Shown: positions 37,984-40,582 of the stretch, piece by piece
Position numbering within the stretch: the first letter of the stretch is position 1
Layout: each line of letters starts with the position of its first letter
Translations under genes and position numbers: made by a program
The notes under the pieces: model-generated
Told to the model about the DNA's origin: nothing
Databases searched by the model: none
The model's input: only the letters and a program-made list of their open reading frames with translations
NCBI RefSeq assembly: GCF_030068615.1
Contig: NZ_JASJOC010000001.1
Span: 620,001 to 684,000 of the forward strand
Direction: 5' to 3'
DNA: 64,000 nt
Source of the DNA: Halostagnicola sp. A-GB9-2
Lineage (GTDB): Archaea; Halobacteriota; Halobacteria; Halobacteriales; Natrialbaceae

Positions 37984-38014
37984 GCCAACGAGCGCTCACC
38001 CTCGTTGGCGAGGG
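37984..38014 (-). terminator. two overlapping hairpins after the winged-helix gene
   Basis: GCCAACGAG (37984-37992) pairs perfectly with CTCGTTGGC (38001-38009) around 8 nt. An alternative stem CCCTCG-TTGG-CGAGGG (37999-38014) uses part of the same bases, so only one can form at a time. Position directly after the minus-strand stop fits a terminator or mRNA 3' structure. Confidence 0.45.
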
Positions 38015-38015
38015 C

Positions 38016-38633
38016 TCAGCCGTCGTAAGTGAGCAGTCCGTCGGACTCGCGGGCGAGCGTCGTCGCCCGTTCGCCAAAGGAGTCGGCGTGTCGCACGAGC
38101 AACAACAGAACGGTCGTCGGCCGTTCAACGGTGTAACCGTCCTCTCGAGACAAGAGCCCGGCTTCCTCGAGTTTGCCCGCGTACTTGCTTACGGTCGGCG
38201 GGGAAACCTCGAGGGCGTCGGCGAGGTCGCCGGCGGTTGCGTCCGGATCTCGAAGCAATTCGATCAACATGCCTCGGGACGTTCCGCGGCGCAAATAGCC
38301 GAGGGCGTTCTTTTCGAACTCGTCGAACCGACCCGTGAGCACGAACCGCTTGTAATCGCCGTCGCTGTACTGCTCGACCGCATCGAGTTCCTCGAGGCGT
38401 CTGAGGTGGTGCTGGGTCTCTCCCGTGCCGAGCTGTAGGTCATCACGAATTTTCGAAAAGTGTGCACCGGGCGTCGTCGAGAGGTAGCCAGCGATCGCGT
38501 CACGAGCATCACTTTCGCCGGTGTCTGCGGCGGCCGACGCCGAAAACCCGGCGAGTGGGGACGCGGCACCGACAGCGGCAAACCGGCGCAGGGTCGATCG
38601 CTTTTCTTCGTCGACCCCATCGGGTGATGTCAT
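38016..38633 (-). CDS. winged-helix regulator with an N-terminal Tat-like or membrane segment
   Basis: A 205-residue protein with two tandem winged-helix regions: residues about 45-100 (DAIAGYLSTTPGAHFSKIRD ... TGETQHHLRRLEEL) and about 108-175 (LIELLRDPDATAGDLADAL ... SPPTVSKYAGKLEEAGLL). Before them, residues 10-38 contain STLRRFAAVG followed by a hydrophobic Ala/Gly-rich stretch, like a Tat signal or a single membrane anchor. Export of a DNA-binding protein would make no sense, so anchoring is likelier. Its target genes are unknown. Confidence 0.75.
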   Translation of the reverse strand: MTSPDGVDEEKRSTLRRFAAVGAASPLAGFSASAAADTGESDARDAIAGYLSTTPGAHFSKIRDDLQLGTGETQHHLRRLEELDAVEQYSDGDYKRFVLTGRFDEFEKNALGYLRRGTSRGMLIELLRDPDATAGDLADALEVSPPTVSKYAGKLEEAGLLSREDGYTVERPTTVLLLLVRHADSFGERATTLARESDGLLTYDG

Positions 38634-38699
38634 AACTATCTATCAATTGGAACGGGGCGAATCGTAAAACGAGTTTCGCTCCGCGTTGTTCACTGAATC

Positions 38700-39851
38700 C
38701 TATGAGTCGGCGTCCGGCTCGGGCTGTGTGTCACCCTCGAAAGACTGGTCCATATCTTCGATAACGTCGTCCGGATCAGTGATCGTGCCGGCGTCTTTGC
38801 CCTCCTTAATGGCCCGGGCCTGTTTTTCCATCTCCTCTAGGTCCATCTCGGCTTCCTCGTCGATCTCGCCGATGATTTCGGCGATGTCGTCGAGGCCGAT
38901 CAGTTCGCGGGTCTCCTCATCAAATTCGAGGCTCTCGAGTTCCGCACCGTCGCCTTCGACATCGCTACCAGAGAGGTGTTTGCCGTAGCGCCCGACCATC
39001 GAGGTAAGCTCCTGGGGCAGGACGAACGTCGTGGACTCGCTCTGGCCCATCTCGGTCAGGGCGTCCATGCCCTTATCGATGACGGCGCGTTCGCCCATGG
39101 ATTCGGCCGAGCGAGCGCGGAGGACGGTCGAGATCGAGTCACCCTGGGCCTCGAGGATCTGGCTCTGCTTTTCACCCTGGGCGCGGATGATCTGGCTCTG
39201 TTTGTCACCTTCTGCCTTCTCAACTTCACTCCGGCGTTCACCCTGTGCCTCGAGAATCATGGCACGGCGTTTCCGCTCGGCGGAGGTCTGTTGTTCCATC
39301 GCACGCTGGACGTCTTTGGACGGGTTAACTTCACGGACTTCGACGCTCTCGACGCGGATCCCCCACTCGTCTGTGGGTTCGTCGAGTTCGGTTCGGATCT
39401 TTGCGTTGATCTCCTGGCGTTTGTTGAGCGTGTCGTCGAGTTCCATGTCACCCAGCACGGCACGGAGGGTCGTCTGGGCGAGGTTGGAGGTTGCCTTCTT
39501 GTAGTCGTCGACCTCGAGGAACGCCTTCTTCGCGTCCATCACTTTAATGTAGACGACGGCGTCTGCGGTCACGGGCGAGTTGTCGCGCGTGATCGCTTCC
39601 TGGCGTGGCACGTCGAGGGTCTGTGTCCGCATATCGAACCGGTACGTCCGCGAAACGAACGGCGGAATGATGTTGATACCTGGCTCGAGGAGTTTGCGGT
39701 ATTCACCGAAGACCGTCAGCGCACGTTTTTCGTACGCGTCGACGATTTCGACGGCACTGAGGAGTGCAGCGAGTACCACAACGAGTACGAGGGCACCGAT
39801 CAATAGCCCGACACTGGCTACTCCTTGCAGCGGGATAAGTTCCGGAAGCAT
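38700..39851 (-). CDS. SPFH/band 7 (stomatin/prohibitin-like) membrane protein
   Basis: A 383-residue protein: one N-terminal membrane segment (residues about 10-37), the SPFH domain (about 38-215, with EKRALTVFGEYRKLLEPGIN and RRAMILEAQGER), a long charged coiled coil (EKAEGDKQSQIIRAQGEKQS), and an acidic tail. It forms large assemblies that organise membrane microdomains and often works with NfeD, which is encoded just upstream on the same strand. NfeD end and SPFH start are 71 bp apart. The protein may control the membrane proteases. Confidence 0.93.
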   Translation of the reverse strand: MLPELIPLQGVASVGLLIGALVLVVVLAALLSAVEIVDAYEKRALTVFGEYRKLLEPGINIIPPFVSRTYRFDMRTQTLDVPRQEAITRDNSPVTADAVVYIKVMDAKKAFLEVDDYKKATSNLAQTTLRAVLGDMELDDTLNKRQEINAKIRTELDEPTDEWGIRVESVEVREVNPSKDVQRAMEQQTSAERKRRAMILEAQGERRSEVEKAEGDKQSQIIRAQGEKQSQILEAQGDSISTVLRARSAESMGERAVIDKGMDALTEMGQSESTTFVLPQELTSMVGRYGKHLSGSDVEGDGAELESLEFDEETRELIGLDDIAEIIGEIDEEAEMDLEEMEKQARAIKEGKDAGTITDPDDVIEDMDQSFEGDTQPEPDADS

Positions 39852-39922: not shown

Positions 39923-40582
39923 TCAGTTCGACTCCGTTTCCGTCATCGAATCGTCGGCATTGACCTCGGATTCGTCCTCGGCCTCATCGAGGTCGTCCAT
40001 CTCAATTGCGTCCGTTCCGCTGTCGGAATCCGTTCCGGGAGATTCGGACGCCTGTTCGTCCGCTTCGTCTGCCGTTTCACCGCGAGCGAGCGCGCGGTCG
40101 ATTTCGTCCGCCTCGATCGCGCCGACGGCTTCGACCATCAGCACGTTCCCACCGCCCGGATCGAGAACCATGATCTCTTCGCCTTCCTCGATGGTGCCGC
40201 TGGTCGTTCGAGCGCTGTAAAACGGGGCGAATCCACCGCTGTCGAGTTTGACTTCGCCGCTGCGAGCCGTTATCTTCTCGGTCGCGTATCCCGTCGCTCC
40301 CGCAAGCGAGGAGGAATCGCTCGTCTGCGCGGTTCCCTTCCCGCCGTAGAAGTCGAACTCGCGGTAGGCGTAGGCCGCGACCGTACCGATTGCCAACGTC
40401 AATCCTGCAAGGACGATCGTATCGAGTCCGCCCGGGACCAACAACCCGATGAGTCCGGCACCAGCCAGTGCGACACCGATGACAATGAGATGTGCACCTG
40501 GCGAGAGGGCCTCGAGAACCATCATGACGAGGCCCGCCGCGAACAACAACAGCGGGATATTAGTGAGGAGGGATTCCACCAT
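39923..40582 (-). CDS. NfeD-family membrane protein
   Basis: A 219-residue protein. Three to four membrane segments cover residues about 5-75 (LLLFAAGLVMMVLEALSPG is typical NfeD). A C-terminal OB-fold follows at about 92-155 (ATGYATEKITARSGEVKL, GEEIMVLDPGGGNVLMVEAVG). Residues 160-219 are an acidic tail. This is the short NfeD type without a ClpP-like protease domain. The OB domain is thought to bind the partner SPFH protein, encoded directly downstream. Confidence 0.9.
   Translation of the reverse strand: MVESLLTNIPLLLFAAGLVMMVLEALSPGAHLIVIGVALAGAGLIGLLVPGGLDTIVLAGLTLAIGTVAAYAYREFDFYGGKGTAQTSDSSSLAGATGYATEKITARSGEVKLDSGGFAPFYSARTTSGTIEEGEEIMVLDPGGGNVLMVEAVGAIEADEIDRALARGETADEADEQASESPGTDSDSGTDAIEMDDLDEAEDESEVNADDSMTETESN

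Follow-up and report, generated by a model that had tools for sequence, protein, structure and literature searches.

A haloarchaeal winged-helix regulator with a conserved N-terminal basic block, encoded beside SPFH and NfeD-like membrane proteins

The window analysed here is a stretch of 64,000 nucleotides (nt) from the haloarchaeon Halostagnicola sp. A-GB9-2 (contig NZ_JASJOC010000001.1, positions 620,001 to 684,000), and the gene in question, at positions 38016-38633, encodes a regulator with a short N-terminal block, a variable linker and two winged-helix domains. The DNA-binding part of this protein is that of an ordinary, known kind of regulator; comparison of the haloarchaeal orthologues shows stronger conservation in the N-terminal block than in the DNA-binding domains. 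A preliminary description of this DNA had proposed a transcription regulator with a Tat-like (twin-arginine translocation) or membrane-anchoring N-terminus; the regulator, its two winged helices and a special N-terminus are retained here, whereas the Tat signal and the membrane-spanning anchor are not. Instead, the protein is considered probably to be a cytoplasmic regulator equipped with a docking peptide; the family match is computed, while DNA binding and location we infer. The features of the gene are listed below, with residue numbers referring to its product.

38016..38633, minus strand: double winged-helix regulator gene, 205 amino acids (aa) plus stop codon (open frame and family matches)
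38556..38615, minus strand: conserved N-terminal basic block, residues 7-26, VDxxKRxTLRRFAxxGAxxP (orthologue comparison; mostly within a helix predicted by AlphaFold2 at residues 4-23)
38505..38555, minus strand: variable Ala-rich linker, residues 27-43 (orthologue comparison; predicted local distance difference test score, pLDDT, below 50 at residues 27-38)
38301..38513, minus strand: first winged helix, PF24266 HTH_HVO_0163_N, residues 41-111 (Pfam, AlphaFold2 and structure alignment)
38136..38282, minus strand: second winged helix, MarR/ArsR type, residues ~118-166 (Pfam and AlphaFold2)

Conservation of the N-terminal block

The start codon of the gene lies at 38633 and its stop codon ends at 38016 on the minus strand, a span that the preliminary description had given exactly, although without a strand. 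On the plus strand, the frame of 38016 is interrupted by stops. Upstream of the ATG, the minus-strand frame continues for just two codons before it closes, which leaves little space for an alternative start; a mis-called start was rejected on this ground and because the conserved part is a block lying 5' of the Ala-rich part. In a search of its own family, 124 of 125 genomes matched at an expectation (E) value of 1.3e-63 or better, most of them along the full length of the protein; the exception, G035, is a genome that is 55% complete, and the copy in G124 is cut by a contig end. Judged by these comparisons, the open reading frame is a real gene. Its product carries STLRRFAAVG followed by an Ala-rich stretch (AASPLAGFSASAAADTG) and, behind this N-terminus, PF24266 and a MarR/ArsR-type helix-turn-helix (HTH), much as had first been noticed.

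Orthologues are distributed throughout the class. All 391 genomes of the class sample yielded some match, and in 383 the best E value was below 1e-50; among the eight others (G142, G174, G226, G278, G286, G298, G337 and G409), G226 has an orthologue that is split in two yet retains its whole block and, counting it in, an orthologue is present by E value in 384/391. In a sample of the phylum, 81 of 294 genomes matched at an E value of 1e-15, comprising 53 members of the class, 52 of which matched at 2.6e-84 or better, and 28 other genomes, in which the listed matches start at residue 15 or later and mostly past 30. The loci that could be named, which are the best 80 of 127, all belong to haloarchaea, including Halostagnicola, Natrinema, Natrialba, Halovivax, Halorussus, Halosimplex and Halobellus.

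The block was found in all 80 named loci and in 160 of 161 distinct frames, the remaining frame being cut by a contig end; 152 frames carry the strict form R.TLRRF and eight show small changes (e.g. TLKRF, TLRKF, TLRQF, TLRRV). For quantitative comparison, six of 176 loci were excluded (L134, L151 and L181 with a variant anchor, L146 with TLRQF, L147 with TLRKF and L183 at a contig end), and the remaining 170 gave 154 distinct sequences, which form the non-redundant orthologue set used below. These loci were taken as best matches, such that poor orthologues are under-represented. Across 4000 random pairs from this set, mean pairwise identity was 0.81 in the block, 0.36 in the linker, 0.74 and 0.68 in the two HTH regions and 0.57 in the tail. 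On this measure, the block is the most conserved stretch of the protein. Its near-invariant residues are D8, K11, R12, T14, L15, R17, F18, A19 and G22, although the invariance of D8, R12, T14, L15 and R17 is partly due to the pattern by which the set was chosen, which fixed these five and restricted V7, K11, R16 and F18; A19 and G22, which the pattern left free, are each present in 154/154. The codons for G22 vary (GGT 52, GGG 35, GGC 34, GGA 33), and such synonymous variation at fixed residues of the block argues that selection acts on the protein.

The linker behaves quite differently. Its length and make-up vary, being Ala-rich in most Natrialbaceae and often acidic in other families (e.g. 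FRGDDDGGESE in L080, a Halorussus), and V7 and the TPG motif lie 39 to 66 residues apart in the 154 orthologues. The Ala-rich hydrophobic look of the N-terminus is thus mostly that of a family-specific linker. Homologues that begin only after the hydrophobic part, a case the preliminary description had raised against itself, do occur: the shorter paralogues mostly start there, whereas the orthologues, with their conserved block, do not.

A broad DNA pattern for the block matched in 92 of 97 class genomes, many with one to three matches beyond the orthologue, and a reversed-pattern control also matched in many of the 97 (not tallied). The idea that the block is a common haloarchaeal signal was rejected, as in its own genome the pattern matched the orthologue and one other place, and the reversed control two. 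Text searches of open-licence papers, covering HVO_0163 and its neighbouring genes as well as stomatin or SPFH together with haloarchaea or winged helices, yielded no description of the block.

Winged-helix domains and the N-terminal helix

PF24266 matches residues 41-111 of the window protein with an E value of 1.3e-24 and 86.5 bits against a cut-off of 31, and all 55 sequences of the orthologue alignment (A1, the window protein plus 54 of 61 non-redundant orthologue proteins) match it at an E value of 0.001 or better. On this evidence, the protein is a double winged-helix regulator of the PF24266/HVO_0163 type and, from the fold alone, it would bind DNA and control genes. Haloarchaeal PF24266 proteins are ArsR/MarR-like, many of ~170-190 aa, and share with the window protein two winged helices in the same order. 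Most matches to these paralogues start at residue ~33-44 of the window protein (most at residue 30 or later) and thus lack the N-terminal block; the few listed matches that start between residues 9 and 30 include several with internal stop codons. HVO_0163 itself, which may be the orthologue or a shorter paralogue, is called ArsR-type, and more abundant after hypochlorite, in PMC10294847.

An AlphaFold2 model built from the 55 aligned sequences (mean pLDDT 87.4) places a helix at residues 4-23 and, beyond a linker predicted to be disordered, two folded domains. Taken by tens, pLDDT is 87-98 over residues 41-200, which hold the two winged helices, and averages 81 at residues 11-20, 57 at 1-10 and 55 at 21-30. 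In VIA-align 2, many winged helices align with model residues 37-102, for example 5j6x (Z 12.6, root-mean-square deviation (rmsd) 1.3, 65 residues aligned) and 2nyx (Z 11.5, rmsd 1.1, 62 aligned). A Foldseek search with the model gave no match at an E value of 0.001 or better, a sequence search of the PDB with the whole protein gave two weak relatives over the HTH regions, and a PDB search with the N-terminal peptide gave no relatives at E values up to 10.

In the MarR family proper, N- and C-terminal dimer helices surround one winged helix, and the best-surviving alternative to a docking peptide is that the N-terminal helix of the window protein is such a dimer element, packing on the partner subunit like MarR helix 1 and playing no part at the membrane or with outside partners. 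In its favour, an alignment over model residues 1 to 102 is obtained with several MarR structures (3bpv, Z 11.1, rmsd 4.5, 84 aligned; 7el2, Z 10.8, rmsd 4.2, 80 aligned; 3vod, Z 10.7, rmsd 4.0, 82 aligned), and pLDDT is fair at residues 11-20. However, although the winged helix aligns well with this family, chains that reach residue 1 do so only at rmsd 3.6-5.9, compared with mostly 0.9-2.5 for those covering the first winged helix alone. In addition, the variable V7-TPG distance and a linker predicted to be disordered would be unusual for a built-in dimer helix, and the block is missing from most paralogues that have this pair of HTH domains. This alternative is regarded as unlikely, although it is the least unlikely of those considered.

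Neighbouring genes and a putative promoter

Upstream of the regulator, on the same strand, lie two genes for membrane proteins and, closer to the start codon, a promoter-like element:

38663..38679, minus strand: BRE/TATA-like element GCGAAACTCGTTTTACG, 46 to 30 nt before the start codon (upstream-region comparison; putative promoter), BRE being the B recognition element
38700..39851, minus strand: gene for an SPFH/Band 7 (stomatin-like) membrane protein of 383 aa, immediately 5' of the regulator gene (PF01145)
39923..40582, minus strand: gene for an NfeD-like membrane protein of 219 aa, 5' of the SPFH gene (weak NfeD matches)

The SPFH protein matches PF01145 with an E value of 4.3e-42 and 144.6 bits, against a cut-off of 23.6. 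In the flanking DNA examined, an SPFH gene precedes the regulator, in the same orientation, in 147 of 154 distinct loci (73/74 in Natrialbaceae and 74/80 in other families, a split made by the authors from kinship labels and record titles), and in 136 of these within 600 nt. By comparison, a HAD-like hydrolase gene that lies downstream of the regulator, in convergent orientation, is seen in 46/74 Natrialbaceae and in only 5/80 loci of other families; this difference speaks against mere general synteny as the reason for the SPFH linkage. Seven wider gaps between the SPFH and regulator genes were inspected (L035, L065, L072, L058, L080, L093 and L095). In L035, L065 and L072, the gap contains a further SPFH gene in tandem with the first, such that the regulator still follows an SPFH gene; the gap of ~2.1 kb in L058 holds a transposon-like gene of 423 aa, which we take to resemble TnpB, and other frames lie in the gaps of L080, L093 and L095.

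Of the 80 named loci, 69 also carry an NfeD-like gene, further upstream and in the same orientation. The window's own NfeD-like protein matches the NfeD model weakly (E 0.13, below cut-off), while 34 of 36 aligned orthologues (alignment A2, the window's own NfeD-like protein plus 35 of 60 others) match NfeD models at E values up to 1, the best at 3.2e-05. A profile search of the PDB likewise gave weak matches, to the stomatin operon partner 3wwv (E 0.32) and to YbbJ (E 0.39).

The pattern CGAA-N2-8-TTTTA, which we take to resemble a haloarchaeal BRE plus TATA box, occurs in 117 of 154 regions upstream of the regulator, namely in 74/74 Natrialbaceae and 43/80 others, compared with an average of 0.1 in shuffled sequences; a longer form, GGAGCGAAACNNGTTTTA, is found in 66/74 Natrialbaceae and 0/80 others. 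An occurrence so far above the shuffled level suggests that, in addition, the regulator is probably transcribed from a promoter of its own, the element at 38663-38679 being the putative promoter and possibly also an operator.

A second alternative is that the N-terminus is an activation peptide touching the basal transcription machinery (TBP, TFB or RNA polymerase). A peptide that is short and basic, carried on a flexible linker and near-invariant across the class would fit a fixed, universal partner, and both the wide distribution of the orthologue (384/391 genomes) and the retention of the block in loci without an SPFH neighbour are in keeping with this; nevertheless, such a role is considered less probable still than that of a dimer helix.

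Possible ties to the membrane and a candidate docking partner

A transmembrane helix usually reaches a 19-residue Kyte-Doolittle hydropathy mean of 1.6, and a Tat signal carries an uncharged stretch of at least 13 residues behind its arginines. Membrane insertion and export were assessed from such a hydropathy window, from counts of uncharged residues and from the TatP motif, RR.[FGAVML][LITMVF], in the form given in PMC6085387. The best mean in the first 50 residues of the window protein is 1.32; over the N-terminal regions of the 154 orthologues the best means average 0.89, with a maximum of 1.36, and none reaches 1.6. A transmembrane span was thus rejected by orthologue comparison, and with it the membrane-spanning anchor of the preliminary description, whose hydrophobic N-terminal stretch is present as an Ala-rich run but is weak in hydropathy and often acidic outside its own family. 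An amphipathic membrane helix was also rejected, since the helical hydrophobic moment at residues 11-24 (0.24-0.28) is not above that of shuffled sequences (0.28 in the window protein, shuffle mean 0.34).

These values also bear on a third alternative, slightly less probable than the activation peptide, in which the short peptide, both basic and hydrophobic, attaches directly to the membrane surface and makes the protein a peripheral membrane regulator. Basic residues do stand beside L, F and A, the neighbouring genes encode membrane proteins, and 18 uncharged residues (FAAVGAASPLAGFSASAA and one more A) lie between RR and the next acidic residue in the window protein; against this stand the low hydrophobic moment and the low hydropathy across the orthologues. 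Export of the protein by a true Tat signal is very improbable: RR followed by FAAVGAASPLAGFSASAAAD looks Tat-like in the window species and at least 13 uncharged residues follow RR in 92/154 orthologues, but the run is just 11-12 residues in 62/154, the TatP motif is absent from the window block and from 144/154 orthologues (136/154 with K allowed), only 7 of the 18 orthologues that have the motif with K allowed (10 without) also have at least 13 uncharged residues, and a DNA-binding protein has no plain use outside the cell. A membrane span or Tat signal in the N-terminus is therefore unlikely on these sequence measures, in line with the initial doubt about export.

The membrane-bound one-component regulators ArnR and ArnR1 of Sulfolobus acidocaldarius are, according to PMC6396743, likewise archaeal HTH regulators in a membrane setting. 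However, the window protein differs from them in that its N-terminus has no transmembrane segment by hydropathy and the rest forms two globular domains in the model; with all 154 N-termini below the threshold, the membrane-anchored one-component sensor originally envisaged, which needs at least one such segment, is not supported. The regulator may instead have a link to the membrane by way of a protein partner, namely the SPFH-NfeD pair of the neighbouring genes.

In the reading preferred here, that of a docking peptide on a cytoplasmic regulator, a helix that is short and basic (residues ~4-23) would be joined by a flexible linker to the DNA-binding part, with conservation taken from sequence and helix and disorder from the model. 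The near-invariant residues of the helix would form a docking surface for one specific partner, and the best candidate is the SPFH-NfeD membrane assembly encoded upstream, which could either retain the regulator at the membrane or set it free, thereby tying transcription, perhaps from the regulator's own promoter, to the state of the membrane. As a whole, this explanation, a cytoplasmic regulator with a docking peptide and SPFH-NfeD as partner, is judged the best available, at about an even chance of being right; the identity of the partner is its least certain step and is put forward tentatively. A more specific form, in which most haloarchaea possess an nfeD-SPFH-regulator unit whose SPFH-NfeD cage captures the soluble regulator by its peptide and releases it upon a membrane change, is more doubtful. 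If true, it would constitute a sensor of membrane state without any transmembrane segment in the regulator.

Several observations weigh against this explanation. The alignment of some MarR structures from model residue 1 leaves room for a MarR-like dimer helix, and the AlphaFold2 model is a single chain in which helix contacts cannot be read, with low pLDDT at residues 1-10 and 21-30 (57 and 55). The HAD gene is an imperfect control, as its product is less conserved and distant copies may be missed. Six of the seven class genomes without the regulator (G174, G298, G278, G286, G337 and G409, all haloarchaea) retain an SPFH gene, near which three short patterns from the block and first HTH were not found, and only G142 lacks both, such that co-loss is not the rule; conversely, in 7 of 154 loci the regulator is present but the flanking DNA examined contains no SPFH gene. 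From these two counts, the tie between SPFH protein and regulator is not obligate. Finally, gene neighbourhood can mirror shared timing rather than contact.

To our knowledge, the function of SPFH-NfeD in archaea is little known outside work on the Pyrococcus protease, and a regulator encoded beside SPFH-NfeD, with a peptide seemingly made for one partner, makes a role for this pair testable. SPFH-NfeD operons are described in PMC2636767, and the neighbours in the window, an SPFH protein and an NfeD-like protein with weak NfeD matches, resemble such pairs (p-stomatin operons; QmcA-YbbJ). The phrase 'transcriptional regulator' is absent from the main text of that paper, whereas nearly every locus compared here has a winged-helix regulator gene behind its SPFH gene. 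A precedent for recruitment by an SPFH protein comes from Bacillus subtilis, in which, according to PMC8581546, YdjI is needed to bring PspA, a stress protein encoded in the same operon, to the membrane; there, however, the partner is PspA and not a transcription regulator.

A minor observation concerns the downstream end of the gene, where a perfect 9-nt inverted repeat with an 8-nt loop (37984-38009) lies between the convergent regulator and HAD genes and is a possible terminator.
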